Assembly: GCF_001500045.1 (NCBI RefSeq)
Contig: NZ_LQIX01000011.1
Location: forward strand, 1 to 64,000
Length of the DNA: 64,000 bases
Origin: Mycobacterium sp. GA-1199
Lineage (GTDB): Bacteria > Actinomycetota > Actinomycetes > Mycobacteriales > Mycobacteriaceae
Direction of reading: 5' to 3'
The notes beneath the pieces were generated by a model. The model saw only the letters and a list, made by a program, of their open reading frames with translations. It was not told where the DNA came from and searched no databases. How positions within the stretch are numbered: position 1 is the stretch's first letter; each line of letters begins with the position of its first letter. This document shows, in pieces, positions 1,800 through 18,200 of the stretch. The position numbers and the translations under genes were made by a program.

Positions 1800-1842
1800 A
1801 AAGGATGCGACCCCTTGGGGTAGGTGTGTTCGGTGCGTCGAA

Positions 1843-1848
1843 TATAAG
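1843..1848 (+). promoter_or_regulatory. Candidate -10 element for mbtB
   Basis: TATAAG matches the TATAAT consensus at five of six positions. It is followed about 20 nt later by the IdeR-like box, so a repressor bound there would cover the start of transcription. No convincing -35 hexamer is seen 16-18 nt upstream. The assignment rests on sequence match and position only. Confidence 0.4.
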
Positions 1849-1867
1849 GTAGCGTGCCCCGCGTTAG

Positions 1868-1886
1868 TTAGGGCAGCCTGTACTAA
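1868..1886. promoter_or_regulatory. IdeR-like iron box between mbtA and mbtB
   Basis: TTAGGGCAGCCTGTACTAA matches the 19-bp IdeR consensus TWAGGTWAGSCTWACCTWA at 14 of 19 positions, including both outer arms. IdeR with Fe(II) represses mycobactin genes in mycobacteria (established). The box sits in the short divergent region, so it could control mbtA and mbtB together. A second, tandem box was looked for here and none better than 10/19 was found. Confidence 0.75.
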
Positions 1887-1901
1887 TCCGGAGGACGCGT
1901 C

Positions 1902-4900
1902 GTGGGTGTGGGTGAGACTGGTTCGCTGACCGGGCAGGGGACCGAGCGAACGACCGATCGCACCGTCCGCGAGGAGGTCGCCGAGCTCCTCGGGGTGAGT
2001 CCCGACGAGGTCGACCCGAACGCCGACCTGATCGCCTCCGGACTCGACTCGATCCGCATGATGTCGCTGTCGGGCCGGTGGCGCAAGCAGGGCATGGACA
2101 TCAACTTCGCCGCCCTCGCGGAGAACCCGACCGTGGCGGCGTGGTCGGCGCTGGTCGCCCAGCGGTCCGGTGGCGGCGAAGCCGAGCAGGCGACGCACAC
2201 CGCGCCGGCCGGCGACGAGAACGACCCCTTCCCGTTGGCGCCGATGCAGCACGCGATGTGGTTGGGCCGCAACGACGATCAGCAACTCGGCGGGGTCGCC
2301 GCACACCTGTACGTCGAGTTCGACGGCGCCGGCGTAGACCCGCAGCGGTTGCAGAGCGCGGCAACCAAACTCATTGCGCGCCACCCGATGTTGCGGGTCG
2401 AGATCCTTCCCGACGGCACCCAGCGGATCGGGGAGCGCGGCCTGCCCGTAACGGTCTACGACCTGCGCGACCTGGACGCCGCGGCCGCCGAGCAGCGCCT
2501 CGAGTCCATCCGGCACGAGAAATCGCACCAGATCCTCGACGGCGACGTACTCGAGTTGAGCTTGTCGCTGCGTCCCGACGGGCGCACCCGGCTGCACGTC
2601 GATATGGACATGAATGCCGCCGACGCGGTGAGCTACCGCAAGTTCATGGCCGACCTCGCGGTGTTCTACCGCGGCGGCGATCTACCCGAGCTGGGATACA
2701 CCTATCGGGAATACCGCGCCGCGCTGGCCGCGTCCGATCCCGGCCCGTCCGACGAGGATGTGCGGTGGTGGGCCGAACGCATCCCCGAACTTCCCGAATC
2801 GCCGGCGCTGCCGCTGATTCCGCCGGCCGAACAGAACGACCCCCGGCGCAGCGTCCGGCTCTGGCACATCTTCGACGTCCCGACCCGCGACGCCTTGTTC
2901 GCCGCCGCGCACCGCCGTGGCATCACGCCGGCAATGGCCGTCGCTGCGTCGTATTCCCATGCGCTGGCACGCTGGTCGAGCGGTTCGCGGTTCCTGCTGA
3001 ACCTGCCGATGTTCGGACGTGAGCCGTTCCATCCCGACGTCGAGAAGCTCGTGGGCTGCTTCACGTCGTCGTTGATGCTCGACATCGACCTCACCGAAAC
3101 CCGCACGCCCGCGCAGCGGGCCCGCGCCGTGCAGCAGACCCTGCACAACACCGCGCGGCATTCGAGATACTCGGGCCTGTCGGTGTTGCGCGACCTCGGG
3201 CGTCACCGGGGCAGCCAGGTGCTGGCGCCGATCGTCTACACCAGCGCACTGGGGCTCGGCGACCTGTTCGCCGGCGAGGTCACCGACCAGTTCGGGGCCC
3301 CGGTGTGGACGATCTCGCAGGGCCCGCAGGTGCTCATCGACGCGCAGGCGACCCCGCTCGCCGACGGTCTGATGATCAACTGGGATGTGCGCGTCGACGC
3401 GTTCCGGCCCGGTGTCGCCGACGCGATGTTCGCCTACCACCTCGCCGAGCTGACCCGGCTCGCGACCGACGACGCCGCGTGGGACGCTCCCGATCCGCCC
3501 GCGGTGCCCGAGACGCAGCGAGCCGTGCGGCGGGCGGTCAACAGCATCACGGCGCCGCCGAGCGGCGAGGCGATCCACGACGGGTTCTTCAACCGAGCGC
3601 TCGCCGACCCCGACGCCCCGGCGGTGTTGAGCCGCGACGGCGACCTGACCTACACCGAACTTCGTGACCGGGCCTTGGGTGTGTCGGCGACGTTGCGCGA
3701 CAACGGCGTTCGCCCCGGTGACCTCGTCGCGCTGATCGGGCCCAAGTGCGCCGAACAGATCCCCGCCGTGCTCGGCATCCTCGCGGCGGGCGCCGCCTAC
3801 CTCCCGATCGGCGCGGGCCAGCCCGCCGAGCGCACCGCGCGGATACTCGAGTCGAGTGCGGTGGCCGCGGTCCTCGTGTGCGGTGGCACCGGGGCGAACC
3901 ACACGGGGACGAACCACACCGGCGTGCCGGTCATCACCGTCGCCGACGCGATCACCCGCGACACGTCCGACGTGCAGCCCGCCCCGACCGACCCGAATTC
4001 GCTTGCCTACGTGCTGTTCACCTCGGGTTCGACCGGTGAACCCAAGGGGGTGGAGCTCACTCACGACGCGGTGATGAACACCGTCGAATTCGTCTCCTAC
4101 CATTTCGGCCTGCACCGGGGTGATCGCAGCCTGGCGCTGGCCTCGCTGGAAGCCGACATGTCGGTGCTCGAGATATTCGCGCTGCTGCGCGCGGGCGGCG
4201 CGGTCGTGGTGGTCGACGAGGATCAGCGCCGCGATCCGGACACCTGGGCGCGATTGATCCAGCAGCACGGCGTGACGTTCCTGAACTGGATGCCCGGATG
4301 GCTCGACATGCTGCTCGAGGTCGGCGGCGACCGGCTGACCAGCCTGCGGGTGGTGCTGCTCGGTGGCGACTGGGTGCGCCCGGATCTGATTCGGACCCTG
4401 CGTAACTCGGCCCCGGACGTCCGCGCCGCCGGTCTGGGCGGCGCGACCGAGACCGCGGTGCACGGAACGATCTGCGAGGTCGGTGATCTGCCCGCGCACT
4501 GGACATCGGTGCCCTACGGCACCCCCTTCCCGAACAACGCCTGCCGCGTGGTGGCCGCCGACGGGTCGGATTGCCCCGACTGGGTCCCCGGCGAACTGTG
4601 GTTCACCGGCCGCGGCATAGCGCGCGGTTACCGCCGGCACCCCGACCTGACGGCCGAGAAGTTCGTCGAGCACGAGGGCCGAACCTGGTACCGCACCGGC
4701 GATCTCGTTCGCTACCTTCCCGACGGGACACTGGAATTCGTCGGCCGTGTCGACCATCGGGTCAAGATCAGTGGATACCGCATCGAGCTCGGCGAGGTCG
4801 AGGCCGCCCTCAAGCGGGTCGCCGGAATCGACGCCGCGGTGGCGGCCGTCATTCCCGGTGAACGCGATGTGCTGGCGGCTCTGGTGCGCACCGACGATCC

Positions 4901-5417
4901 CGCGGTCGATGCGCGGGCGGTCACCGCGGCCATGACCGATCTCGTTCCCGCCCACATGATCCCGAAGATCGTCGCGGTCGCCGACCGTATCCCGTTCACC
5001 GTCAACGGCAAGATCGACCGCAAGGCCGTGGCGCGCCTGCTGGCCGACGTGGAACCGCCCGCCGCACAGGGGTATCGGGCACCGGCCACCCCGTTGGAGT
5101 CCGCGTTGGTGGCGATCGTCGAAGATGTGCTCGACGTCGACGACGACGTCCGCGTGGGTGTGGACGACGACTTCTTCTCCCTCGGTGGGGATTCCGTGCT
5201 GGCCACGCAGATGATCGCCCGGGTGCGCGACTGGCTGGACACCCCGACGGTGTTGGTCACCGACATGTTCGCCGCCCGGTGCGTCGCCAGGCTCGCCGAG
5301 CGACTCCTCGGTCGCGAACCCGACGGCGACCGGCTCAACGCCGTCGCCGAGGTTTATCTGGAGGTCGCGCAGATGGACAGCGTCGAAGTGCTGTCCGAAC
5401 TCGAATCGTCAGCCTAG
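1902..5417 (+). CDS. mbtB: Mycobactin NRPS MbtB (ArCP-Cy-A-PCP)
   Basis: This phenyloxazoline synthase receives salicylate from MbtA, activates threonine or serine and cyclises it to the hydroxyphenyl-oxazoline. The 1171 residues read in order: an aryl carrier domain with GLDS (Ser50 for phosphopantetheine); a condensation/cyclisation domain whose motif DxxxxDxxS falls at 236-244, the signature of Cy rather than ordinary C domains; an adenylation domain with FTSGSTGEPKG near 706-716; and a peptidyl carrier with LGGDS (Ser1098). The protein stops about 70 residues after this serine, so there is no thioesterase domain, unlike the longer (about 1414 residue) M. tuberculosis MbtB as I recall it. 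The GTG start has GGAGG seven bases upstream. The last 9 nt overlap the convergent oxidoreductase gene. Confidence 0.95.
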   Translation: MGVGETGSLTGQGTERTTDRTVREEVAELLGVSPDEVDPNADLIASGLDSIRMMSLSGRWRKQGMDINFAALAENPTVAAWSALVAQRSGGGEAEQATHTAPAGDENDPFPLAPMQHAMWLGRNDDQQLGGVAAHLYVEFDGAGVDPQRLQSAATKLIARHPMLRVEILPDGTQRIGERGLPVTVYDLRDLDAAAAEQRLESIRHEKSHQILDGDVLELSLSLRPDGRTRLHVDMDMNAADAVSYRKFMADLAVFYRGGDLPELGYTYREYRAALAASDPGPSDEDVRWWAERIPELPESPALPLIPPAEQNDPRRSVRLWHIFDVPTRDALFAAAHRRGITPAMAVAASYSHALARWSSGSRFLLNLPMFGREPFHPDVEKLVGCFTSSLMLDIDLTETRTPAQRARAVQQTLHNTARHSRYSGLSVLRDLGRHRGSQVLAPIVYTSALGLGDLFAGEVTDQFGAPVWTISQGPQVLIDAQATPLADGLMINWDVRVDAFRPGVADAMFAYHLAELTRLATDDAAWDAPDPPAVPETQRAVRRAVNSITAPPSGEAIHDGFFNRALADPDAPAVLSRDGDLTYTELRDRALGVSATLRDNGVRPGDLVALIGPKCAEQIPAVLGILAAGAAYLPIGAGQPAERTARILESSAVAAVLVCGGTGANHTGTNHTGVPVITVADAITRDTSDVQPAPTDPNSLAYVLFTSGSTGEPKGVELTHDAVMNTVEFVSYHFGLHRGDRSLALASLEADMSVLEIFALLRAGGAVVVVDEDQRRDPDTWARLIQQHGVTFLNWMPGWLDMLLEVGGDRLTSLRVVLLGGDWVRPDLIRTLRNSAPDVRAAGLGGATETAVHGTICEVGDLPAHWTSVPYGTPFPNNACRVVAADGSDCPDWVPGELWFTGRGIARGYRRHPDLTAEKFVEHEGRTWYRTGDLVRYLPDGTLEFVGRVDHRVKISGYRIELGEVEAALKRVAGIDAAVAAVIPGERDVLAALVRTDDPAVDARAVTAAMTDLVPAHMIPKIVAVADRIPFTVNGKIDRKAVARLLADVEPPAAQGYRAPATPLESALVAIVEDVLDVDDDVRVGVDDDFFSLGGDSVLATQMIARVRDWLDTPTVLVTDMFAARCVARLAERLLGREPDGDRLNAVAEVYLEVAQMDSVEVLSELESSA

Positions 5418-6269
5418 GGCACCAGACAACCGACGCCACTGATCGCGCGGGAACGCCCGCGGGTCGGCGGTCAGCACCTGCACGCACACGTGGTCGGCAC
5501 CGGCATCGAGGTGTTGCTGGACCCGGCTCAGCACGGTCTGTTCGTCGCCCGAGGCGATGATCGCGTCGAACAACCGGTCGCTGACCGTCTCGACATCCTC
5601 CTCGGTGAACCCCGTCCGCAACAGGTTGTTGCGGTAGTTGGGCAGCGCCAGATACGAACGCAGCCAATCGGTTCCGACCGAACGCGCCTCGTCGCGGTCG
5701 GTGGTGAGCAGGACGGTCTGCTCGGGCAGCAGCAGCGGGCCCTCGCCCAGCTGCTCGCGGGCGTAGCGCGTGTGGTCGGGGGTGACGAGGTAGGGGTGCG
5801 CTCCGCGCGCGCGGGTCGCGGCCAGTTCGAGCATCTTCGGGCCCAGGGCCGCGAGCACCCGGTTGGCGACCGGAACCGGTTGCGGGGTCGCATCGATCGC
5901 GTCCAGGTACTTGCGGGTTGCGGCCAGCGGCTTGCGGTAGAGGCCCGGTTCCTTCGAATCGATCAGCGGCGCATGGCTCACTCCGATCCCCAGCAGGAAG
6001 CGCTCGCCGTGGCTCTCGGTCAGTGCCGCGTAGCGGGCGGCCACCTCGGCGGGCTCGTGCATCCAGAGGTTGAGGATCCCGGTGGCGATCACCACTCGCT
6101 TGGTCGCCGAGAGCAGGTGTTCGACCGAATCGAGGACCGGCCCGCCGACGTCGGGAATCCACAGGGCGGTGAACCCGAGGTCCTCCAACTCCGCGGCGGC
6201 CTCGGCCGCTTCACCCTGATCGCCGTATCGCAACTGCGAACTCCAGATACCGACCCCTGCCAGATCCAT
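5409..6269 (-). CDS. F420-dependent LLM-class oxidoreductase
   Basis: The 286-residue product belongs to the luciferase-like (LLM) flavin/F420 family, in the TIGR03620-like probable F420 group typical of mycobacteria. Such enzymes are TIM barrels using reduced F420 or FMN; the substrate is unknown. Visible family features are the N-terminal beta strand GVGIW, the AAELEDLGFTALWIPD helix-strand, the central TGILNLW segment and the RFLLGIGVSHAPLI loop. The ATG at 6269 is preferred over a start 45 nt upstream because AAGGGA lies six bases before it. The gene is convergent with and overlaps mbtB, and diverges from the siderophore-type ABC genes across an IdeR-like box. An iron-linked role, such as handling a siderophore or its ferric form, is inference from context. 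Confidence 0.82.
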   Translation of the reverse strand: MDLAGVGIWSSQLRYGDQGEAAEAAAELEDLGFTALWIPDVGGPVLDSVEHLLSATKRVVIATGILNLWMHEPAEVAARYAALTESHGERFLLGIGVSHAPLIDSKEPGLYRKPLAATRKYLDAIDATPQPVPVANRVLAALGPKMLELAATRARGAHPYLVTPDHTRYAREQLGEGPLLLPEQTVLLTTDRDEARSVGTDWLRSYLALPNYRNNLLRTGFTEEDVETVSDRLFDAIIASGDEQTVLSRVQQHLDAGADHVCVQVLTADPRAFPRDQWRRLSGALG

Positions 6270-6348: not shown

Positions 6349-6367
6349 TAGGGTTAGGCGATCCTTA
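6349..6367. promoter_or_regulatory. Strong IdeR-like iron box before the ABC transporter pair
   Basis: TAGGGTTAGGCGATCCTTA matches the 19-bp IdeR consensus at 16 of 19 positions, the best of the four boxes seen. It ends 24 nt before the ABC transporter start and lies 80 nt from the start of the divergent oxidoreductase, so it may control both. The half-sites are nearly palindromic. Confidence 0.8.
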
Positions 6368-6391: not shown

Positions 6392-8218
6392 ATGACCGCT
6401 GTGCAACCCGCGCCCGCCATCGAGACGGGTCCCCCCGAAACCGCGGCCGACGCGGCCAAGCGGGCGGCCACCTACGACAAGCTCGCGCTGCAGCAGCTGC
6501 TCGCCCCCACTCGCGCCCGCTCGTCGCGGGCGCAGCGCTACCAGCTGCTGGCCTCGGCGGCCACGATCGTGCCGTTCATCGGCATCGTGGAGATCGGCCG
6601 TGAACTGCTCGCCGGCGGACCGCCGGATACCACCAGGCTCTGGACCGTCGTCGCCATCGTGATCGTCGCGCTGCTGGTGCGCACGCTGGCCAGCGGTGCC
6701 GCGCTCACGATCACCCATTTCGCGGACGTGGATCTGCAGCGGTCGTTGCGGCTGCGGATCGTCGACAAGCTGGGCCGGTTGCCGCTGGGCTGGTTCGGCG
6801 GCAAGTCGTCGGGCGAGGTGAACAAGGCGGTCCAGAACGACGTCGGCGAACTGCATTTCCTGGTCGCTCATTCGGCCGTGGAGAACACCGGTGCGTTGGC
6901 CACCCCGCTGTTCGGCCTGATCTATTGCTTCTACCTCGACTGGCGGCTGGGCCTGCTGGCGATGGCCACCGTGCCGTTCTACATCGGCATCTACCTCGCG
7001 CTGGGGCGCGACTCCCGAACGCAGATGGAACGGCTCGACCGGGGGGTCGAACGGATCAGCGCCACCATCGTCGAGTTCATCGCCGGAGTGTCGGTGGTCA
7101 AGACATTCGGCCAGGCCGGCAAGGCGCACAAGCGTTTCGCCGACGCCGCCGACGAATTCAACGAGAGCTTCGCCGGGTGGATCGGACCGCTGGTCCGGGT
7201 CAAGGCGGTGTCGTCGGTCTTCATCGACACCCCGGTTCTGCTGCTGGCCAACCTGGCCGGCGGATACTGGTTCGTCCGCAGCGGCTGGGTCACCCCGATC
7301 GAGGTGCTGGGCTCGACGCTGGTCGCGGTGACCATCCCGGCGGCCGTCCTGACCGTCGGCTACTCCACCCACATCAAACGCCAGGCCGCGGCCGCCGCCG
7401 GGCGCCTGCAGCGCCTCCTGGACACACCCGTCCTGCCCGTCGCGCGCGAACCTGCGGTACCGCAGGACAATTCGATCCGATTCGAGGACGTCCGATTCTC
7501 CTACGACGGCGAGAACACCGTGCTGCACGACGTCTCGCTCACACTTCCGGCGGGGACCATCACCGCGCTCGTCGGACCGTCGGGCAGCGGCAAGTCGACG
7601 CTGGCCACCCTCGTGCCGCGCTTCCATGACGTCACCGCGGGCGCGGTGCGCGTCGGCGGTGTCGACGTCCGCGACATCGCGCCCGCCGAGCTGTACCGGC
7701 ACGTCGGGTTCGTTCTGCAGGACGTGCAACTGCTGGGCATCAGCGTCGCCGACAACATCCGCCTCGGCCGCGCCGACGCCACCGACGACGACGTCGTCGC
7801 GGCGGCCAAGGCCGCCCGTATCCACGACCGGATCCTGCAGCTGCCAAGGGGGTACGACTCCGTCATCGACGAGGACGCCCACTTCTCCGGCGGCGAGGCT
7901 CAGCGCGTCAGCATCGCGCGCGCGGTACTGGCCGACACCCCGATCCTGGTGCTCGACGAGGCGACCGCGTTCGCCGACCCCGATTCGGAAGCCCAGATCC
8001 AAGAGGCGTTGTCGCGGCTCATCGCGGGGCGCACCGTGCTGGTCATCGCGCACCGGTTGGGCTCGATCGTCTCGGCCGACAACGTGGTCGTGCTGGATCA
8101 AGGACGCGTCGTCGAACAGGGCAAGCATGACGAACTGCTCGCCGCGGGCGGGCAGTACGCGCGCATGTGGCAGTCCTACACGGCAGGCCACGCACGGGAA
8201 TGGGAGGTGGCCCGATGA
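6392..8218 (+). CDS. ABC transporter, exporter fold (IrtA/YbtP-like), subunit 1
   Basis: The 608-residue product fuses six membrane helices (about 70-380) to an ATPase domain. Walker A GPSGSGKS is at 395-402, the signature SGGEA at 499-503, Walker B Asp522-Glu523 and the H-loop His554. It pairs with the next gene as a heterodimeric transporter. Type IV exporter-fold pairs such as mycobacterial IrtAB and Yersinia YbtPQ import ferric siderophores despite their fold (established). IrtA carries an N-terminal FAD/siderophore-reductase domain; here only about 55 residues precede the first helix, so that domain is missing and the arrangement is more like YbtP. It starts with ATG behind a GGAGGG site, 24 nt after a strong IdeR-like box. 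The direction of transport is inferred. Confidence 0.88.
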   Translation: MTAVQPAPAIETGPPETAADAAKRAATYDKLALQQLLAPTRARSSRAQRYQLLASAATIVPFIGIVEIGRELLAGGPPDTTRLWTVVAIVIVALLVRTLASGAALTITHFADVDLQRSLRLRIVDKLGRLPLGWFGGKSSGEVNKAVQNDVGELHFLVAHSAVENTGALATPLFGLIYCFYLDWRLGLLAMATVPFYIGIYLALGRDSRTQMERLDRGVERISATIVEFIAGVSVVKTFGQAGKAHKRFADAADEFNESFAGWIGPLVRVKAVSSVFIDTPVLLLANLAGGYWFVRSGWVTPIEVLGSTLVAVTIPAAVLTVGYSTHIKRQAAAAAGRLQRLLDTPVLPVAREPAVPQDNSIRFEDVRFSYDGENTVLHDVSLTLPAGTITALVGPSGSGKSTLATLVPRFHDVTAGAVRVGGVDVRDIAPAELYRHVGFVLQDVQLLGISVADNIRLGRADATDDDVVAAAKAARIHDRILQLPRGYDSVIDEDAHFSGGEAQRVSIARAVLADTPILVLDEATAFADPDSEAQIQEALSRLIAGRTVLVIAHRLGSIVSADNVVVLDQGRVVEQGKHDELLAAGGQYARMWQSYTAGHAREWEVAR

Positions 8219-9951
8219 TCCGGGGCTTTCTGCAGATCCTCGGCCCGCAGCGGGGCCGGATGTTCAGCTTCCTGTCGGTGGTGACCGTTTACGGCATCGT
8301 GCACGGCCTGGTGATGCTGCTCCTGGTGCCGGTGACCGTGTCGCTGTTCGACGGCGACTACGCTGCCACCGGCCGCTGGCTGGGCTTGATGGCGATCACC
8401 GTGCTGGTCGCGTCGGTGCTCAGCTACGTTCAAGCCAAACTGGCGATCCGCATGGCGCTGACCACGATGCGGCTGCTGCACCACCGGCTTGGCGACCACA
8501 TGGTGACCCTGCCGCTGGGGTGGTTCAGCCGCGAGACGGTCGGCAAGGTGTCCCAAATCGCGGTCAAGGGAACGGTTTTCGTCGGCACCAGCGGCGGCAA
8601 CCTGGTCACGCCGCTGGTGGTCAACACCGTCAGCGCGCTCACCGTGGTGGTCGGTCTGTTCTACTTCGACTGGCGGATCGGGGTCGTCGCGCTGGTCGGC
8701 GGTGTGCTGCTGGTGGTGTGCGGGCGATTCGCCTCCCGACTGATCGCGGGCGCCGAGGTGCGCACCCACGACGCGGCGATCGAAGTCAACAACCGGGTGA
8801 TCGAGTTCGCGCGCTACCAGCCCGTGCTGCGGGCCTTCGGGCGCACCGGGGCCGACTACACGCCCCTTCGCGACGCGTTGCAGACCCAGCATCGCGCCGG
8901 ACGCGCCGCGTTGTGGCAGTCGGTCACCGGACTGCTGCTGAACGGCGTTGCCGTGCAGGCGGTCTTCTCGGCACTGATCGCAGCGGGTGTGTGGATCGCG
9001 GTACAAGGCGACATCAACCCCGTCACGCTCGTCGCGATCCTCGGGCTCGCCGCCCGCTTCGCCTCGCCGCTGTCGCAGCTGGCTGAACTCGGGTCCGCGG
9101 TCAGGCTGGCCACCGCGGAGCTTGGGCGCATCACCTCAATCCTGGACACCCCGTCCTTGGCGGAGCCGGCCGCCGCGAGTGCGCTTCCGGCGCCCGGACG
9201 AGTCGAGCTCGACCGCGTCGCGTTCGGCTATTCGGACCGAAAGGTGCTCACGGACGTGAGTTTCGTCGCCGAGCCGGGCACCATGACCGCGCTGGTCGGC
9301 CCGTCCGGCTCGGGTAAGTCGACGATCACCCGGTTGATCGCGCGCTTCTACGATGTCGACGGCGGCGTGGTCCGGGTGGGCGGCGTGGACGTGCGCGACC
9401 AGCTGACCGCGGACTTGATGGCGCAATTGTCGCTGGTCTTCCAGGACGTGTACCTGTTCGACGACACGCTGTGGGAGAACATCCGCATCGGTCGGCCCGA
9501 CGCCGACGATGCCGCCGTCGTCGAGGCGGCTCGCACGGCGGGCCTGTTGTCGGTCGTGGAGCGATTGCCCGATGGCTGGCAGACCCGGGTGGGTGAAGGC
9601 GGTTCGGCGCTCTCGGGCGGCGAACGGCAGCGGGTGTCGATCGCACGGGCGCTGGTCAAGAACGCGCCCATCGTGCTGTTCGACGAGGCGACCAGCGCGC
9701 TGGACCCCGAAAACGAACATCACGTCGCCGAGTCCATCCGGACGCTGGCGCAACACAGCACCGTCATCGTGATCGCACACAAGCTGTCCACGGTCACTGC
9801 CGCCGACAACATCGTGGTGCTCTGCGCCGACGGCGCGGTCGAGGACCAGGGCAGCCATGCCGAGCTGATGGCGCGCGGCGGCCAGTACGCGCAGTTCTGG
9901 AACCAACGTGTGGCCGCGAGCGGTTGGGTGATGGCGGCGGCGGAAGGATAG
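8215..9951 (+). CDS. ABC transporter, exporter fold (IrtB/YbtQ-like), subunit 2
   Basis: The 578-residue partner of the preceding gene has six predicted membrane helices in the first 310 residues and an ATPase domain with Walker A GPSGSGKS at 362-369, signature LSGGE at 466-470, Walker B Asp490-Glu491 and H-loop His522. Both catalytic glutamates are present in the pair, so both ATP sites look active. Its ATG overlaps the TGA of subunit 1 (ATGA), so translation is coupled. The family includes IrtB and YbtQ; simple lipid or drug exporters are the alternative. Placement inside the mbt locus and behind an iron box favours ferric siderophore import or carboxymycobactin traffic. M. smegmatis irtAB lies elsewhere as I recall, so this may be an additional pair. 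Confidence 0.88.
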   Translation: MIRGFLQILGPQRGRMFSFLSVVTVYGIVHGLVMLLLVPVTVSLFDGDYAATGRWLGLMAITVLVASVLSYVQAKLAIRMALTTMRLLHHRLGDHMVTLPLGWFSRETVGKVSQIAVKGTVFVGTSGGNLVTPLVVNTVSALTVVVGLFYFDWRIGVVALVGGVLLVVCGRFASRLIAGAEVRTHDAAIEVNNRVIEFARYQPVLRAFGRTGADYTPLRDALQTQHRAGRAALWQSVTGLLLNGVAVQAVFSALIAAGVWIAVQGDINPVTLVAILGLAARFASPLSQLAELGSAVRLATAELGRITSILDTPSLAEPAAASALPAPGRVELDRVAFGYSDRKVLTDVSFVAEPGTMTALVGPSGSGKSTITRLIARFYDVDGGVVRVGGVDVRDQLTADLMAQLSLVFQDVYLFDDTLWENIRIGRPDADDAAVVEAARTAGLLSVVERLPDGWQTRVGEGGSALSGGERQRVSIARALVKNAPIVLFDEATSALDPENEHHVAESIRTLAQHSTVIVIAHKLSTVTAADNIVVLCADGAVEDQGSHAELMARGGQYAQFWNQRVAASGWVMAAAEG

Positions 9952-10054
9952 CCGCGTTCGCGCACGTCAGGCGGGTACGGCTACGCGAAGCAGCGAACAC
10001 GACAGGACCGGGATGGCCCTTGGTGGAGGGGCGACGTAGGCGTGTCCGGGTCGC

Positions 10055-10073
10055 GAAGGATAGGGTAACCTCA
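10055..10073. promoter_or_regulatory. IdeR-like iron box 1 before mbtT operon
   Basis: GAAGGATAGGGTAACCTCA matches the IdeR consensus at 15 of 19 positions. It is the upstream member of a tandem pair spaced 27 bp start to start. Paired boxes are known before M. tuberculosis mbtB (established for that species). Confidence 0.65.
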
Positions 10074-10081
10074 CTTCCGAT

Positions 10082-10100
10082 TTAGGACAGCCTGCGCTAA
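10082..10100. promoter_or_regulatory. IdeR-like iron box 2 before mbtT operon
   Basis: TTAGGACAGCCTGCGCTAA matches the IdeR consensus at 14 of 19 positions and closely resembles the mbtA/mbtB box (15 of 19 bases shared). It ends 16 nt before the 28-codon leader reading frame and would control the whole mbtT-C-D-E-F-G run. Confidence 0.72.
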
Positions 10101-10116
10101 TCACACGGAGGAATTC

Positions 10117-10203
10117 ATGAGTGTTTTCGCCGCGGAATCGCAGGCCCGCTCACCCTATCTTCTGAGTCTTCGCCGCCGCCCCGACGCGACTGAAACGCGA
10201 TGA
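10117..10203 (+). CDS. 28-residue leader reading frame coupled to mbtT
   Basis: An ATG at 10117 is preceded by a near-perfect ribosome site, GGAGGA, at 10107-10112. The frame runs 28 codons and ends in a TGA at 10201-10203 that overlaps the mbtT ATG at 10200 (ATGA). The peptide starts MSVFAAESQARS, has a short hydrophobic YLLSL stretch and then RRRPD, and ends ETR; it is not a signal peptide or a simple amino-acid attenuator. mbtT itself has no Shine-Dalgarno sequence, and an in-frame TGA at 10191-10193 blocks any upstream mbtT start. Ribosomes finishing this frame are therefore the likely source of mbtT translation. I recognise no family; an independent function of the peptide is unproven. 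Confidence 0.6.
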   Translation: MSVFAAESQARSPYLLSLRRRPDATETR

Positions 10204-10946
10204 TCGACGAACGGAGCCAGCTGACCTTCGCGCCCTGGATCAAACGTTCGGCGGGGCAGTCCTCAGACGGCGCGACTGTCGTCTTCCCGCACGCCGGCGG
10301 TGCGGCGGCGGCCTACCGGGCATTCGCCTCGGCGTTGGCCCGCGCCGGCGACGACGCGTACGTGGTCCAGTACCCGCAGCGCGCGGACCGGTTGCGCCAT
10401 CCCGCCCCGGAGACGGTGCAGGACCTGGCCGCCGATCTGTTCGCCGCCGGCGACTGGTCTGAGCTGGGACCGCTACGGTTGTTCGGCCACTGCATGGGTG
10501 CCGTCATCGCGTTCGAGTTCGGCCGCGTGGCCGAGCGCAACGGCATTCCCGTTCGCCAGCTGTGGGTCTCGGCGAGCCAGGCACCGTCGACCATCGCGAC
10601 CTCGCCGCGCCTGCCGACGGCTGAGGCGGAAGTCGTCGCCAACATGGTCGACCTCGGCGGGACCGACCCCCGCCTGCTGGCCGACGAGGACTTCATCGAA
10701 CTGCTCGTTCGCGCGGTGCGTGCCGACTACACGGCGTTCAACCGCTACGCGTGCGAAGCCGACGTCCGCCTCGCCGCCGACATCCACACCGTCGGTGGCC
10801 GCGACGATCACCGGATAAGCCCAGACATGTTGCGCGGATGGGAGACTCACACCCACGGCGCCTTCACGCTCTCGTTGTTCGACGGCGGCCACTTCTACAT
10901 CAACGACCATCTCGACGCCGTCGCGGAGTTGGTCAATGCCGGCTAG
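10200..10946 (+). CDS. mbtT: Type II thioesterase MbtT
   Basis: This is an alpha/beta-hydrolase thioesterase of the GrsT/YbtT editing type, 248 residues, acting on acyl or aminoacyl groups stuck on NRPS/PKS carrier domains; it could also release product. FPHAGGAAAAY at the N-terminus is typical. The nucleophile elbow reads GHCMG, with Cys98 where most relatives have serine. Candidate partners are Asp202 or Asp203 and His231 in GGHF. The ATG overlaps the stop of a 28-codon leader frame, and the 3' end overlaps mbtC by 11 nt. A separate mbtT is known from M. smegmatis. Because MbtB here lacks a thioesterase domain, this gene may carry more of the proofreading load. Confidence 0.9.
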   Translation: MIDERSQLTFAPWIKRSAGQSSDGATVVFPHAGGAAAAYRAFASALARAGDDAYVVQYPQRADRLRHPAPETVQDLAADLFAAGDWSELGPLRLFGHCMGAVIAFEFGRVAERNGIPVRQLWVSASQAPSTIATSPRLPTAEAEVVANMVDLGGTDPRLLADEDFIELLVRAVRADYTAFNRYACEADVRLAADIHTVGGRDDHRISPDMLRGWETHTHGAFTLSLFDGGHFYINDHLDAVAELVNAG

Positions 10947-12267
10947 CGCGCCCGACGGCGTCAGCGACGATCCGATCGTCATCGTGGGGATGGCGATCGA
11001 GGCGCCGGGAGGAATCGGCACCGCCGACGACTACTGGGATCTGTTGGTCAACCGCCGCGAGGGCCTGTGCCCGTTCCCCCGTGACCGCGGCTGGTCGGTC
11101 CGCGACATCCTCGACGGCTCGGCGCGTGACGGGTTCAAGCGCATCCACGATCTCGGTGGGTTTCTGTCCGGGGCAGCCGAATTCGATCCGGAGTTCTTCG
11201 GGATCTCGCCACGGGAGGCGGTCGCGATGGACCCGCAGCAGCGGGTCGCGCTTCGCGTGGCATGGCGGGCGCTGGAGAACAGCGGCATCAACCCCGACGA
11301 CCTCGCGGGCCACGACGCCGGCTGCTACGTGGGCGCTTCGGTGATGGGCTACGGCCCCGATCTGGCCGAATACTCCAACCTCACAGGTCATTTGATGTCC
11401 GGCACCGCGCTCGGCGTGATCTCGGGGCGCATCGCCTACACTCTTGGCCTCGCCGGACCCGCGGTGACCGTCGACACCTCATGCTCGTCGACGCTGACCG
11501 CGATCCACACCGCTTCACAGTCGCTGCGGTCGGGAGACTGCGACCTCGCGCTGGCCGGAGGTGTCTGCGTCATGGGCTCAGCCGGCTTCTTCGTCGAATT
11601 CTCCAAACAACATGCGCTGTCCGACGACGGACACTGCCGCCCCTACAGCGCGCAGGCCAGCGGCACCGTCTGGGCCGAGGGTGCGGCCATGTTCGTCCTG
11701 CAGCACCGGTCGCGCGCGCTGCGCGACGGACGCCAAGTCCTCGCCGAGTTGCGGGCCACCTGCCTCAACCAGGACGGCCGCTCCGTCGGCCTGACCGCAC
11801 CGAGCGGCGCGGCGCAGGCGTGGCTGTTCGCACGAGCCCTCAAACGGAGCGGACTGAGTCCGCAGGACATCGGGATGGTCGAGGGGCACGGCACCGGCAC
11901 CCGACTCGGGGACCGCACCGAACTGATCTCGCTCGCCGGGACCTACGGCGCCACCGAACCCGGCCAAGGCCCACTACTCGGCTCGGTGAAGTCCAACCTC
12001 GGACACACGCAGGCCGCCGCCGGGGGACTCGGGCTGGCCAAAGCCCTGGTCGCCGCCGAACACGGCGCCATCCCCGCCACCTTGCACACCGACGAGGCCA
12101 GCCGCGAAATCGACTGGGACAGCCAAGGGTTGCGGCTCGCATCGGAGCTGACGCCCTGGCCCGCAACCAACGGGGAACGGTTCGCGGCGGTCACCGCGTT
12201 CGGCATGAGCGGCACGAACGCCCATGTGATCGTGTCGATTCCGTCGGCCCGGCCCGAGGCGGCGTGA
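10936..12267 (+). CDS. mbtC: Mycobactin ketosynthase MbtC
   Basis: This 443-residue stand-alone beta-ketoacyl synthase condenses a malonyl-derived unit onto the growing chain, working with the MbtD acyltransferase, ketoreductase and carrier domains to make the beta-hydroxy acid linker. The catalytic triad is intact: Cys183 in DTSCSS, His318 in EGHGTGT and His357 in KSNLGHT. Length matches the family (about 444). It starts at ATG inside the end of mbtT, and its TGA overlaps the mbtD ATG, so it is translationally coupled on both sides. Most of its reverse strand is also open, but that is a GC-codon shadow. Confidence 0.95.
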   Translation: MPASAPDGVSDDPIVIVGMAIEAPGGIGTADDYWDLLVNRREGLCPFPRDRGWSVRDILDGSARDGFKRIHDLGGFLSGAAEFDPEFFGISPREAVAMDPQQRVALRVAWRALENSGINPDDLAGHDAGCYVGASVMGYGPDLAEYSNLTGHLMSGTALGVISGRIAYTLGLAGPAVTVDTSCSSTLTAIHTASQSLRSGDCDLALAGGVCVMGSAGFFVEFSKQHALSDDGHCRPYSAQASGTVWAEGAAMFVLQHRSRALRDGRQVLAELRATCLNQDGRSVGLTAPSGAAQAWLFARALKRSGLSPQDIGMVEGHGTGTRLGDRTELISLAGTYGATEPGQGPLLGSVKSNLGHTQAAAGGLGLAKALVAAEHGAIPATLHTDEASREIDWDSQGLRLASELTPWPATNGERFAAVTAFGMSGTNAHVIVSIPSARPEAA

Positions 12268-15206
12268 TGGCCACCGGCTTGCCCGACGGTCGGCTGCCCG
12301 TCGTGTTGAGCGCGCACGCCGAGGAGCTGCTGGCCGCCGACGCCGAGGCGATACTGCGCTATCTCGATCGCGAGCCCGAGGTGGGGGCGGTGGCCGCCAC
12401 ACTGTTGCGCACCCGGCGCATGCGCAGGCACCGCGCGGTGGTGCGCGCCGCCGACACCGCCGAACTGGCCGAAGGGCTCCGCGCGATCACCGACGGCGGT
12501 ACGCATCCGCTGGTGGCCCGCTCGTCGCAATCAACCGCGCCGCGAACGGCTTTCGTTTTCCCCGGACAGGGCAACCAGTGGCCGTCCATGGGAGCGGACG
12601 CCTACCGGCGGTCCCCGGTGTACCGCATGCAGGTCGACCGGTGCGCCGAGGCGTTCGTCGCCGCCGGGCAGCCGTCACCGCTGCCGTATTTGACCGCCGA
12701 GACCACCGGCGGGGCGTGGTCGCAGACGCAGATCCAGTCGGCGCAGTTCACCCATGCCGTCGCGCTGGCCCAGATGTGGCGCACATGTGGAATCACCCCG
12801 GACGTGGTGGTCGGACACAGCCTCGGTGAGGTCGCCGCCGCCTACATCGCCGGAAGCATCGCGCTGCCCGACGCGGCCGCTGTGGTCATCGCCCGCGCCA
12901 CGGCAGTCGAGCGCCTCGCCGGCGACTACGGCATGGCCGCCCTGGGGGTCTCACTCGCCGACGCCGAGCGCTTGATCGAGTCGACGCCGGGGTGGCTCGA
13001 GGTGTCGGCGGTCAACGCCGGTGCGTCGGTGGCGGTGTCGGGGGAGCGCGCCGCGATCAGCGCGCTGGTCGCAGCCGCGACCGAACAGGGTTTGTTCGCC
13101 CGCGAACTCGATGTGAACTACGCCGGACACACCAGTGCGCTGGAGCGGGTCCGTGAGGACCTGCTGGCAATGCTCCCCGACACCGAGTTCGCCGACGCCC
13201 CAATCGAATTCATAGGATCGACCACCGCCGACGTGGTATCCGCAGGCACCGGGTTCACCTCCTACTGGTACCAGAACCTGCGCAACACCGTGCGGTTCGA
13301 CCGGGCCGTCACGGCCGCCGGCCGCCGCGATGTCACGGAATACATCGAGATGTCGGCGCATCCGGCCCTGCTGTTCGCGCTGGGGGACCTGCTGGTCGAC
13401 GAGGACGCGCTGGTCGTCGGATCGGGGCATCGTGGCCTTGCGCTCATAGACTCGGTGTCGGCCAACATCGCCACCGCCGCGGTGGCCAACCCCGAATTCC
13501 GCTGGACCGACCTGGTCGACGTCGCTGCGCAACCCCAGTTGCGCGGCTTCCCGAACGCGCCGATGCGGGCGGTGCGGCTGTGGGCACAGCCGCAGCCGTT
13601 GGCCCCGGTCGACGGCCTGAGCGTCGCCCGCGAGAAATGGGACGTCACCGCCGCACGTCCGGCGGGATCCGCACAGCGCGTGGCTGTCGTCGAGCTTGCC
13701 GGCCCGCGTGGGCCGCTCGGTGCGCGACTGCGGTCGGCCTTGCGGGACAATGGGTCCGACGTGGTCGAGCCGTCCGAGGCCGAACTCGTCGTCGCGGTCG
13801 CGCCCCTGCTGGACCATCCCGACGCCGAACGTGCGGCCCACGACGTCTCCCAGCTCGTCGGCGCGGGCCTGCTCGATTATGTCGATGCACCGGGAAAGCA
13901 TTGCCGCGCGGTGTGTCTGGTCACCGTCGGCGGTGAGCACGTCCAGGCGCGGGAGCCGGTCGCGTTGCCGGCGCAGACCGCGCTGGCAGCGATGCACCGC
14001 AGTCTCGGCTTCGAGCGACCCGAGCAGGCGTTCAGACACCTCGACCTGCCGTCCTGGGAACCCGACGACGCTCTTACCGCGGCGGCGGTGGGCGCGCTTC
14101 TGTCCGGCGGCGACGAACTGGCCGTACGTGACGATGGTTTGGGGCCAACGGTTTTCGCCCGCTCCGTCAGCGAGGCGACGGAGCCCGCGCCGTCGTGGCT
14201 CTCGGCGCCCGGTGTGTTCGACGACGTCGTGATCACCGGCGGCAACGGCGCGGTGGGCATGCATTTCGCGCGGTACCTGGCCGCCCACGGGGCGCGCCGC
14301 ATCGTGCTGCTCAGCCGTCGCGGCGTCGACGACGCCGTCAAGGCCCAAATCGCCGCGATCGCACCGGGTATCGACGTGTTGGCGCCACGCTGTGACATCA
14401 CCTCCACCGAGGACGTGGCCGCCGCGGCCGAGGAGTTCGGCGGTGACGGTGCGTCCCTGCTCATCCACGGCGCAGGCGCGGCGGCCTTCGCCGACCGCGA
14501 CGCGCTCACACCGGAGACGTTCGTCGATGCGGGAGCCGCGAAGATCGGCGGGCTGGCCAGGGTGACCGAGCTTTGGCCGATGCGCGCAGACGCCCGGATC
14601 CTGGTGTGCTCCTCGGTGTCCGGAGTGTGGGGCGGGCGCGGGCACGCGGCATACTCGGCCGCCAACCGGATGCTCGACGTGATGGCGGGCCAACTGCGGG
14701 CCAAGGGCCAGCACTGCGTGGCCGCCAGGTACGGACTGTGGCGCGGTAGCGGCATCGCCGACGCATCCGAGGTGACCAAGATCGAGCGGTCCGGTCTGCT
14801 GGCGATGTCCCCGGACGCCGCCGTCGAGGCCAGTCTGCGCGATCACGGCGAGGATCCGTTGCTGTTCAGCGCCGACCAAGCCCGGCTGCGGGTGTTCCTG
14901 GAGAGCCGGACCGCCGAGCGCGCCGAGACAGCCGCGGCCACAACCCAACCCGATGCCGACACGACGACGCTGGTCACCGCGGAGCTCGGCGCGGTGCTCA
15001 ACATCGACGCGGGCTCGATCGACCTGGAGACCTCGTTGCTGGACCTGGGGGTCGACTCGCTGCTGGCTCTGGATCTACGTAAGCGCCTGCAACGGACGAC
15101 TGGACACAAGGTGTCGCTGGCAGTCCTGCTCGGCGGCATCACCGGCGGCGAACTCATCGCCGACCTCGACAGCAAAGAACGATCAGAGAAGGTGGACAAC
15201 GCGTGA
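12267..15206 (+). CDS. mbtD: Mycobactin polyketide synthase MbtD (AT-KR-ACP)
   Basis: This 979-residue PKS supplies the other polyketide domains of mycobactin assembly. Order: short linker; acyltransferase with FPGQGNQWPSMG and the GHSLGE elbow (Ser185); a ketoreductase with the nucleotide-binding GGNGAVG near residues 656-662 and a downstream SAAN segment; and an acyl carrier with GVDS (Ser931). No ketosynthase is present because that is MbtC. Length is near the M. tuberculosis protein (about 1004). ATG 12267 overlaps the mbtC TGA and its own TGA overlaps the mbtE GTG, so the start is fixed by coupling. The frame is open upstream of the start inside mbtC, which is not coding in that frame. 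Confidence 0.94.
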   Translation: MATGLPDGRLPVVLSAHAEELLAADAEAILRYLDREPEVGAVAATLLRTRRMRRHRAVVRAADTAELAEGLRAITDGGTHPLVARSSQSTAPRTAFVFPGQGNQWPSMGADAYRRSPVYRMQVDRCAEAFVAAGQPSPLPYLTAETTGGAWSQTQIQSAQFTHAVALAQMWRTCGITPDVVVGHSLGEVAAAYIAGSIALPDAAAVVIARATAVERLAGDYGMAALGVSLADAERLIESTPGWLEVSAVNAGASVAVSGERAAISALVAAATEQGLFARELDVNYAGHTSALERVREDLLAMLPDTEFADAPIEFIGSTTADVVSAGTGFTSYWYQNLRNTVRFDRAVTAAGRRDVTEYIEMSAHPALLFALGDLLVDEDALVVGSGHRGLALIDSVSANIATAAVANPEFRWTDLVDVAAQPQLRGFPNAPMRAVRLWAQPQPLAPVDGLSVAREKWDVTAARPAGSAQRVAVVELAGPRGPLGARLRSALRDNGSDVVEPSEAELVVAVAPLLDHPDAERAAHDVSQLVGAGLLDYVDAPGKHCRAVCLVTVGGEHVQAREPVALPAQTALAAMHRSLGFERPEQAFRHLDLPSWEPDDALTAAAVGALLSGGDELAVRDDGLGPTVFARSVSEATEPAPSWLSAPGVFDDVVITGGNGAVGMHFARYLAAHGARRIVLLSRRGVDDAVKAQIAAIAPGIDVLAPRCDITSTEDVAAAAEEFGGDGASLLIHGAGAAAFADRDALTPETFVDAGAAKIGGLARVTELWPMRADARILVCSSVSGVWGGRGHAAYSAANRMLDVMAGQLRAKGQHCVAARYGLWRGSGIADASEVTKIERSGLLAMSPDAAVEASLRDHGEDPLLFSADQARLRVFLESRTAERAETAAATTQPDADTTTLVTAELGAVLNIDAGSIDLETSLLDLGVDSLLALDLRKRLQRTTGHKVSLAVLLGGITGGELIADLDSKERSEKVDNA

Positions 15207-18200
15207 CTGACACGGTCGATATCCGCGAGCAGGTTAAGGACCGCCGGCTGGAGCTGTTGCGTCGCAAGCTCGCCGAGCGGGGTCTGCGCGCGGAGAACAC
15301 CGCGACCGGCGAACAAAGCGGACTGTCCGACGGGCAGCGGCGCATGTGGTTCGTCCAAGCGGCCGACCCCACCGGGGCCATCCTCAACATCTGCCTGTCC
15401 TACCGGCTCACCGGTGACCTGGACGTCGCCAGGCTGCACGACGCCGTCAACGCGGTCGCCGCACGTCACGCCGCGCTGCGCACCACCTACGGCGTCGACG
15501 AAGACGGCGAACCACAACCGACCGTCCACGACGACCTGGCCCCCGGCTGGACCGTGCACGACCTGACCGAGTTGACCGAGCATGCGCGCCGGCTCCGCCT
15601 GGAGGTGCTGGCCCAGCGTGAGTTCTGCGCTCCTTTCGACCTGAGCACCGACTCGCCGCTGCGGCTCACCGTCGTGCGCACCGCCCCCGACGAACACGTC
15701 ATGCTGCTCGTCGCGCACCATATCGCCTGGGACGACGGCTGCTGGCAGGTCTTCTTCGGCGATCTCACCCGCGCGTACGCCGGTGAGGCGCTGGCCCCCG
15801 CGGTCACACCTCCGTCGCATGCGCTCGGCCCGGTCGACGAGGACCTGGACTACTGGCGCGACACACTCGCCGACCCACCGGAGCCGCTGGAGCTGCCCGG
15901 TCCCAACGGGTCTGCGGTGCCGACGAACTGGCGCTCACAGCGGCTGACGCTGCAGCTGCCGGACGTGACGGTCGAGCGGGTCGCCGCGCTGGCCAAGGAG
16001 GCCGGCGCGACGCCGTACATGGTACTACTGGCCGCCTTCGGGGTGCTGCTGCAGCGCTACACCCACGCCGACGACTTCTTGGTCGCCACACCGGTTCTCA
16101 ACCGCACGGCCGACGTCGAGGACGTGATCGGCTACTACGGCAACACGGTGGCACTGCGCCTGCGTCCGGGCGCCCATCAGAGCTTCCGCGACGTCCTGGC
16201 GCACGCCCGTGACACCGCGGTCGGCGCGTTCGCACATCAGCGCGTCAACCTGGACAGAGTGGTGCGCGAACTGAACCCCGACCGCCGCCACGGCGTGGAG
16301 CGGATGACGCGGGTGACCTTCGGCGCGCGCGGCGCCGACGGGCAGGGCTTCAACCCGCCCGGGATCGCCTGCCGCCGAGCCGAATTACGCGGTCACCACA
16401 CTCAGCTGCCGTTGGGCTTCATGGTGGAATTCGACGCGCCCGGGATCGTGGTGGAAGCCGAGTACCTCGTCGAGATCCTCGACGCGCCGCTGGTGCGCCA
16501 GCTGCTCGAGCACTACGCGGTGCTGCTCGACGATGCGCTGCAACGACCCGACGTTCCCGTCAACGAGCTCGACCTGATGGCGCCCGAGGACGTCGAGTGG
16601 TTGCGCAAGGTCTCGGCGGGTGAGGAATTCGACACCGCTCCCTCGACGATGACGGCGCTGGTGGAAGCGCAGGCGGCACGCACCCCCGACGCCGTCGCCG
16701 TGGTCTATGAGGGACGCAACTACACGTACCGGGAACTCAACGAGTCGGCGAACCGGTTGGCGCACTGGCTGATCGAGCGCGGCATCGGCACCGAGGACCG
16801 GGTGGCGGTGCTGCTGGACCGTTCACCGGAGCTGGTCATCACGGCGCTGGGGGTGATCAAGGCGGGTGCGGTGTACCAACCCGTCGACCCGACCTACCCC
16901 GAGGACCGGCTGACATTCATCCTGTCGGACTCCGATCCGAAACTGGCCATCTACGAACCGGTCACCGATCTCGACCGGTTCCCGAACACCAACCCCACCG
17001 ATGCCGAGCGCGTCCGCCCGCTGTACCCGCAAAGCACCGCCTACCTGATCTACACCTCGGGTTCGACCGGTCTGCCCAAGGGCGTCCCGGTGGCCCACAA
17101 GCCCGTCGCCGAATATTTCGTCTGGTTCAAGGGCGACTACGGGATCGACGAGAACGAGCGGCTGCTGCAGGTCGCCTCACCGAGCTTCGACGTCTCGATC
17201 GCCGAGATCTTCGGCATGCTCGCGTGCGGCGGCCGGCTGGTCATTCCGCGCCCGGACGGACTTCGCGACGTCGGCTACCTCACCGACCTGCTGCACGACG
17301 AGGGCATCACCTCCATGCATTTCGTGCCCTCGCTGCTGGGCCTGTTCCTGTCGCTTCCCGGCGTCAACCAGTGGCGGACACTGCAACGGGTGCCCATCGG
17401 CGGCGAGGCGCTGCCCGGCGAGCTGGCCGACAAGTTCCACGCCACATTCGACGCGCTGCTGCACAACTTCTACGGACCGACCGAGACCGTCATCAACGCG
17501 AGCCGGTACAAGGTCGAGGGCAAGCAGGGCACCCGCATCGTGCCCATCGGCAAGCCCAAGATCAACACCCAGATCCACCTGCTCGACGACGCCCTGCGGC
17601 CGGTTCCCGTCGGGGTGATCGGCGAGATCTACATCGGCGGAACACATGTCGCGCACGGCTATCACGATCGCCCCAGGCTGACGGCGGAGCGGTTCGTCGC
17701 CGATCCGTTCAATCCCGGCGGTCGGCTCTACCGATCGGGTGACCTGGCCCGTCGTAACGCCGACGGCGACATCGAGTTCGTCGGTCGCGCCGACGAGCAG
17801 GTCAAGATCCGCGGATTCCGCATCGAACTCGGCGAAGTGGCGGCGGCGATCTCCGTCGACCCGAGCGTCGGGCAGGCGGTCGTGGTGGTGAGCGATCTGC
17901 CCGGTGTCGGCAAGAGCCTCGTCGGCTACGTCACGCCGGCCGAGGACATCGAATCGGTGGATGTCGAGCGGATCCGCAACCGGGTCGCCGCCGCCCTGCC
18001 GGAGTACATGACCCCGGCGGCCTACGTCGTGATCGATGAGATCCCGATCACCGCGCACGGCAAGATCGACCGGGCGGCGCTGCCCGAACCCGACATCGAT
18101 TCCGGCGCGGTGTTCCGCGAGCCGGCCGACGGCACCGAACGCCGGATCGCCGACCTGTTCGCCGAACTCCTGGAACGCGACCGCATCGGTGCCGACGACT

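Follow-up and report, generated by a model that had tools for sequence, protein, structure and literature searches.

A short upstream reading frame of probable mbtB origin as a predicted ribosome-delivery device for mbtT in Mycobacterium sp. GA-1199

The 28-codon reading frame (mini-ORF) that precedes mbtT in the mycobactin cluster of Mycobacterium sp. GA-1199 is best read as a ribosome-delivery upstream ORF, carrying the ribosome site that mbtT lacks and ending in a TGA that overlaps the mbtT ATG, with a promoter and first codons that likely come from mbtB; we give this reading a probability of roughly 0.68. A coupling device, and not a micropeptide, is the most likely function, because the architecture is kept among relatives, mbtT has no ribosome site, and the encoded peptide is unconstrained. 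As judged from sequence comparison, the mini-ORF is probably an mbtB relic in which the former link to mbtT survived when mbtB moved away.

Results

The window (the whole stretch of DNA analysed, 64,000 nt) opens on a mycobactin cluster whose gene names we presume from the initial annotation and from general knowledge of mbt clusters, the analysis itself having provided the domains and the gene order. mbtA (about 120-1847) lies on the reverse strand and is followed on the forward strand by the mbtB promoter (1820..1901), a relative of the mbtT promoter with a box at 1868-1886 and a GGAGGA, and by mbtB (1902..5417), a nonribosomal peptide synthetase (NRPS) gene in which a domain scan detected condensation, AMP-binding and PCP domains and no thioesterase domain. 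Between mbtB and mbtT stand a luciferase-like monooxygenase gene on the reverse strand (PF00296, 5409-6314) and, on the forward strand, irtA-like and irtB-like ABC transporter genes (6392-8218 and 8167-9951, together irtAB). The irtA-like protein has 608 residues, gives only Pfam hits of the ABC-transporter type, and lacks the N-terminal siderophore-interacting domain of IrtA of other mycobacteria. Directly 5' of irtA, at 6349-6367 of the window, there is another IdeR-like site (14/19), suggesting that irtAB may have an iron-regulated promoter of its own.

The forward-strand promoter of the mini-ORF and mbtT (10034..10101), likely a paralogous copy of the mbtB promoter, holds two IdeR-like boxes, GAAGGATAGGGTAACCTCA at 10055-10073 and TTAGGACAGCCTGCGCTAA at 10082-10100. 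Counted by hand against the consensus TWAGGTWAGSCTWACCTWA, quoted in an excerpt of PMC9505556, they match at 15/19 and 14/19 positions, which reproduces the scores given in the initial annotation. The pair marks a promoter predicted to be regulated by IdeR, and the end of box 2 would, we infer, also belong to the -10 element. The plain iron-box palindrome is TTAGGTTAGGCTAACCTAA; against it the boxes score 14 (of 19) and 13, and on the opposite strand 13 and 14. By the same palindrome score, 20 Markov-1 sequences of 64 kb, searched on one strand, contained a mean of 0.2 sites at 13 or above and none at 14 or above.

Direct reading confirmed the arrangement that had been described downstream of the boxes, all of it on the forward strand: a Shine-Dalgarno-like GGAGGA at 10107-10112, the mini-ORF at 10117-10203 with its ATG (10117) 4 nt further on, and a TGA (10201-10203) that overlaps the mbtT ATG (10200) in an ATGA at 10200-10203. 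The mini-ORF belongs to no known protein family in NCBIfam or Pfam at E <= 0.001. mbtT (10200-10946) encodes a stand-alone thioesterase (PF00975), and the earlier statement that it has no ribosome site of its own stands: of the seven start codons in the run that begins with the mini-ORF and ends with mbtG, its own is the only one without a Shine-Dalgarno-like match of at least 3 nt, the mini-ORF having GGAGG and mbtC to mbtG weak matches of 3-4 nt. On the same strand follow mbtC (10936-12267), mbtE (15203-20287), mbtF (20284-24657) and mbtG (24654-25967), whose domains were scanned, and mbtD (12264-15206), which was placed by position and junctions. mbtT overlaps mbtC by 11 nt; mbtC/mbtD and mbtD/mbtE are joined by GTGA overlaps and mbtE/mbtF and mbtF/mbtG by ATGA overlaps, and the junction between the mini-ORF and mbtT is one more link of the operon's usual overlap type. 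The weak matches that mbtC to mbtG have of their own are evidence against a strict dependence of these genes on the mini-ORF, and the earlier proposal that translation of the whole mbtT-G run hangs on it loses ground.

A genus-wide search found an MbtT relative in 305 of 396 genomes at E <= 1e-30, and we compared 26 loci, namely the 25 genomes with an MbtT at least 76% identical (our own included) and the M. tusciae locus L043 from a second collection. In 24 of the 26, a frame begins at a start codon preceded by a 5-base ribosome-site match and terminates at the mbtT start, with a 4-nt ATGA overlap in 19 loci (18 starting with ATG, L017 with TTG) and an 8-nt overlap, permitted by ATGATTGA, in five. 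The length of the mini-ORF varies from 18 to 28 codons across relatives. Among the 18 ATG-led loci with the 4-nt overlap, to which the count was confined, the mbtT tree requires at least five length changes, and all spacings are 2 mod 3; if length changes were blind to the frame, all of them would keep it, by a rough estimate, about once in 240 cases. The reading of the mini-ORF as a coupling device, one of the functions put forward in the initial annotation, is supported by this persistence of overlap and frame. In L018, L019, L021, L022 and L043 the mini-ORF is read in a shifted frame, which nevertheless terminates 8 nt into mbtT. No Shine-Dalgarno match of at least 4 nt was found at any of the 25 separate mbtT starts (L020 being fused), four of which have a 3-nt GAG. 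The observation that had been named as one that would speak against coupling, namely frameshifts in relatives whose mbtT keeps a ribosome site, was not made, as mbtT in the five shifted loci has a 3-nt GAG at most.

An excerpt of PMC4633059 gives a chance control in which 32 of 1000 random ORFs were coupled, and compared with this the 24 of 26 loci with the architecture, 19 of them with ATGA, favour coupling. Open frames are not rare in such DNA, however, which counts against the mini-ORF reading; the mbtT frame itself is open for at least 28 codons upstream in 23 of the 26 loci. An in-frame TGA at 10191-10193 (forward strand, read directly) had been taken to rule out an upstream mbtT start. 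It is present here, but among the 26 loci it is shared by L002 only and is therefore not a general bar; what would generally prevent an upstream start is that no ribosome site is followed by a start codon in the mbtT frame, L017 and L018 being exceptions. In these two loci a GTG in the mbtT frame lies 3' of the ribosome site, so that a longer MbtT is possible there.

Box 2 is found as TTAGGRCAGCCTGCRCTAA in 25 of the 26 loci, the remaining one (L002) having a 2-base insertion, and the box-1 motif likewise in 25, L025 not having it in the form searched. As the insertion of L002 falls inside box 2 of the mbtT promoter, iron control may be altered in that strain. Two further genomes, L173 and L171, also have the tandem-box promoter together with mbtB and the luciferase-like gene, and where mbtT would stand they have an mbtE-like NRPS gene. 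In L173 (3290-3700) a 28-codon GTG frame shares a GTGA overlap with this gene and in L171 the frame runs into it, the ribosome site being weak in both. In genome G230 (contig 1, 1931922-1935272) two mbtT-like matches lie about 2.6 kb apart, as if mbtT or its neighbourhood had been duplicated.

Outside the clade, 71 mbtT loci served as outgroup (L044 repeating L027). In 47 of them the mbtT start coincides with the end of a long frame, in 19 the thioesterase lies within a long frame of MbtB size, and five show neither. By tblastn, the long frame contains the end of mbtB in 33 of the 47, with an RTGA overlap (ATGA or GTGA) in 32; in the other, L046, mbtB ends in TAG just 5' of mbtT and there is no overlap. 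The remaining 14 of the 47 (L048, L055, L062, L063, L066, L069, L070, L071, L073, L079, L081, L084, L089 and L094) have a different gene of 240-259 codons before mbtT, with the RTGA overlap in all 14. This gene occurs in the M. peregrinum/septicum group and in M. manitobense, and the mbtB end lies about 840-880 nt 5' of mbtT in 13 of these loci, the only mbtB match of L066 being 3' of mbtT. In the four loci tested (L048, L073, L084 and L062), its best match among five Mbt proteins was MbtB (32-35% identity, E 2e-29 to 1e-24) over a span from residue 541 or 557 to about 780, and the two copies scanned contain only the first quarter of the AMP-binding domain. It has a 5-6 base ribosome site behind an iron-box-like box of the GTTAGGGCAG type (the preceding stretch is partly N in L066). 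With a pN/pS of 0.15-0.41 in five pairs made from 10 of the 14 genes, the shortened mbtB-like gene is a working gene and not a decaying one. From the mbtB, shortened mbtB-like and fused arrangements together, we conclude that mbtT is usually coupled to mbtB, whole or in part.

The promoter and the first codons point to the same partner. Local alignment of the mini-ORF promoter with the strain's own mbtB promoter, from GTAGGYGTGTYCGG to GGAGGA, scores 55, with 28/36 identities outside the boxes and 28/37 inside; across 13 other IdeR-like loci in the genome, each taken as 3 kb and on both strands, the top score was 37, and the upstream region of irtA scored 19. The tree of promoters comprised mbtB and leader promoters only, so that nesting there is no test against other promoters. 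Codons 1-10 of the mini-ORF (10117..10146, forward strand), MSVFAAESQA, are likely a relic of the mbtB start. When codons 2-10 of 20 leaders were aligned from the start codon with codons 2-10 of outgroup mbtB (32 of 43 starts, those in ten-residue form, 28 distinct), 578 (DNA) and 1503 (BLOSUM62) of 362880 column permutations reached the observed match. Three outgroup mbtB starts (MRVAAADSQT of L178, MGDVTANSQT of L190 and MGVAAANSQT of L180) resembled the leaders, such as MSVFAAESQA (own) and MGVFAADSQA (L010), more closely than did any of 9090 control windows taken in frame from 13 genes of the window. By DNA identity, 11 of 34 distinct outgroup mbtB starts, a set without the fused-type loci L216-L218, fall in the top 1% of the control windows and 11 outside the top 20%. 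The match thus spans nine codons after the start codon, is absent for 11 of the 34 outgroup starts, and is weaker in the own clade, where 4568 of 362880 permutations reach it. The promoters behave in the same way: those of the leaders score a mean of 49.4 with outgroup mbtB promoters and 44.2 with own-clade ones, which in the alignment have extra bases between the boxes. The better match to outgroup than to own-clade mbtB suggests an old copy that keeps features which present mbtB has changed.

All 23 clade loci whose contig extends far enough have mbtB 5' of the luciferase-like gene, and 14 of them have irtAB between mbtB and mbtT as well. In loci without irtAB, the luciferase-like gene and the mini-ORF promoter point away from each other, an arrangement also seen for mbtA and mbtB. 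In L164 (about 6196-6199), irtA is matched by two overlapping segments, residues 1-142 and 142-603, which looks like a frameshift in that genome. In our strain mbtB ends about 4.8 kb 5' of mbtT and has a related promoter of its own. The suggestion that the mini-ORF is a remnant of a lost gene is therefore half right, in that it resembles the start of mbtB but mbtB itself is not lost.

The mini-ORF might also be a second mbtB copy collapsed to both its ends, with the last mbtB codons and the stop included, and not a captured promoter and start only. This version is compatible with coupling, and we regard it as a serious candidate whose chance lies somewhat below even. The last ten codons of 19 leaders (L018 excluded), anchored at the stop, were compared with 32 distinct verified outgroup mbtB ends, and 395 (DNA) and 679 (BLOSUM62) of 100000 permutations reached the match; in an eight-codon comparison three outgroup mbtB ends came within the top 0.03% of control windows. 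The 240-259 codon gene of the 14 outgroup loci also shows that a second, shortened copy does occur at that place. However, the case for the 3' part is weaker than that for the start: most single tails are at chance level, with three of 19 at no more than 3 of 100 shuffles, and L015 alone among those three has a true mbtB end as best match (SGLESTVTSR against SALETTRTS of L026). At 0.311, the strain's own mbtB end does not stand out from other gene ends (0.134-0.384), and the 255-codon copies, being constrained and working, need not be an intermediate. We give an even chance to a history in which a duplicated mbtB before mbtT was reduced stepwise without ever losing the stop/start link, being a 255-codon working protein in the M. 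peregrinum group and a 20-30 codon ribosome-loading stub in the present clade, the stub since then having been deleted once, fused to mbtT once, and now standing before an mbtE-like gene in another lineage (L171 and L173).

If mbtT were translated independently without a Shine-Dalgarno sequence, the mini-ORF would be a bystander of the promoter copy, and we consider this unlikely. Leaderless initiation is common in mycobacteria according to an excerpt of PMC4633059, and L014 has an mbtT start 23 nt 3' of box 2 with neither mini-ORF nor ribosome site, so that mbtT can apparently start otherwise in one relative. Nevertheless, in the other 24 loci with a separate start the mbtT ATG is about 70-100 nt away from box 2, a distance too great for that promoter to yield a leaderless mbtT transcript, and the frame relation has survived the length changes described above. 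L014 suggests that the mini-ORF may become dispensable when mbtT comes to lie near the promoter. In L020 the start of the mini-ORF is fused in frame to mbtT and reads MGVSAADVTPSRPMAPWIK. An RNA structure hiding the mbtT start was considered and rejected, as the folding of 10107-10260 is slightly poorer than that of its shuffled versions (z 1.35), 192 of 200 of which do equally well or better.

A micropeptide that functions in iron starvation, also proposed in the initial annotation, is very improbable. Many of the 20 leaders (a set that excludes L014, L020 and the shifted L019, L021, L022 and L043) open alike, with SQA or a close variant, and pN/pS is 0.60 for codons 2-10 and 1.0 for the remainder; but a low ratio of first codons can also reflect the ribosome-loading region. 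In 14 of the 20 leaders taken as 7 disjoint pairs, which differ at 24 synonymous and 50 non-synonymous positions in total, pN/pS over the whole frame was 0.83 (0.52-1.40 when codons were bootstrapped), and was 0.83 in frame +1, 1.23 in frame +2, and 0.15 for mbtT in the same pairs. The synonymous-biased conservation of the 28-residue frame that had been proposed as a check did not appear, and without a frame effect selection on amino acids is not seen; on this ratio a conserved micropeptide was rejected. The varying length, the shifted frame in five loci and the missing separate peptide in L014 and L020 also contradict it. A start and stop kept in place around unconstrained amino acids are what a ribosome-delivery ORF predicts.

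An attenuator or ribosome-arrest leader sensing an amino acid or a drug is scarcely credible, as the Arg-rich tail of our own copy is accompanied among relatives by no conserved codon run or peptide, and the poor folding of 10107-10260 also speaks against it. Even less so is a mobile coupled element inserted at the mbtT start, such as a MIRU: MIRUs do contain an ORF with -4 nt coupling to the gene that follows (PMC12548453, in excerpt), but promoter and start here match mbtB instead. A search for a MIRU or other repeat found no second copy in the own genome, the next best match having E = 0.43 over 21 bases.

Discussion

We propose that, at low iron, IdeR would leave both boxes and a transcript would begin just before or within the GGAGGA. 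Ribosomes would then load at the mini-ORF, translate it as far as its TGA and reinitiate on the mbtT ATG that this stop overlaps, and mbtC-G would follow via the further overlaps. Historically, an RTGA overlap like that seen in other species of the genus would once have joined mbtT either to mbtB itself or to a second copy resembling it, until the luciferase-like gene (in some strains also irtAB) came to separate the two; the promoter, ribosome site and first codons of mbtB would have stayed, or been copied, 5' of mbtT, with the stop/start overlap retained.

Small coupled ORFs are common in mycobacteria and their origin is seldom visible, and here a likely parent gene can be named. Because relatives display shortened, lost and fused states, selection on coupling and not on the peptide becomes testable. 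Annotation of mbtT without the stub would misjudge translation of the mycobactin operon in about 25 species.

Researchers have already described RTGA-coupled small ORFs in mycobacteria (Shell et al. 2015, PMC4633059; PMC11260477, both in excerpt). In the excerpt of PMC4633059 they have 5-50 codons and a TGA overlapping the next RTG, a range that includes the mini-ORF and its relatives, and one example keeps its coupling and not its peptide sequence, the same pattern as here. The 23 counted there start leaderless, whereas the mini-ORF has a strong ribosome site, IdeR-like boxes and an apparent descent from mbtB. In size, overlap and unconserved peptide it fits this class, its translation and the dependence of mbtT on it being predictions. 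Closest in layout is uPPE2-ppe2 of M. tuberculosis, in which, according to an excerpt of PMC11260477, a uORF with a Shine-Dalgarno sequence overlaps by AUGA a downstream gene that lacks one, and uORF translation was essential in reporters; that uORF lies in a B12 riboswitch leader and was reporter-tested, whereas the mini-ORF is a predicted uORF behind an iron-box promoter. The MIRU (PMC12548453, in excerpt) likewise has a short ORF coupled at -4 nt, but is repetitive and mobile where the mini-ORF is single-copy. Within the genus, the mbtB-mbtT RTGA junction of other species has the same overlap type at the mbtT start and a related promoter before the partner, which is a full mbtB or the 240-259 codon mbtB-like gene and not an 18-28 codon stub. 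Among the matches listed in our search of the open-access literature, made partly by title and abstract, no published description of the mbtT stub was found. The class of device is known; as far as our searches show, what is new is its setting in a mycobactin operon and its likely origin from a partner gene that was displaced, with versions in relatives that are shortened, lost or fused.
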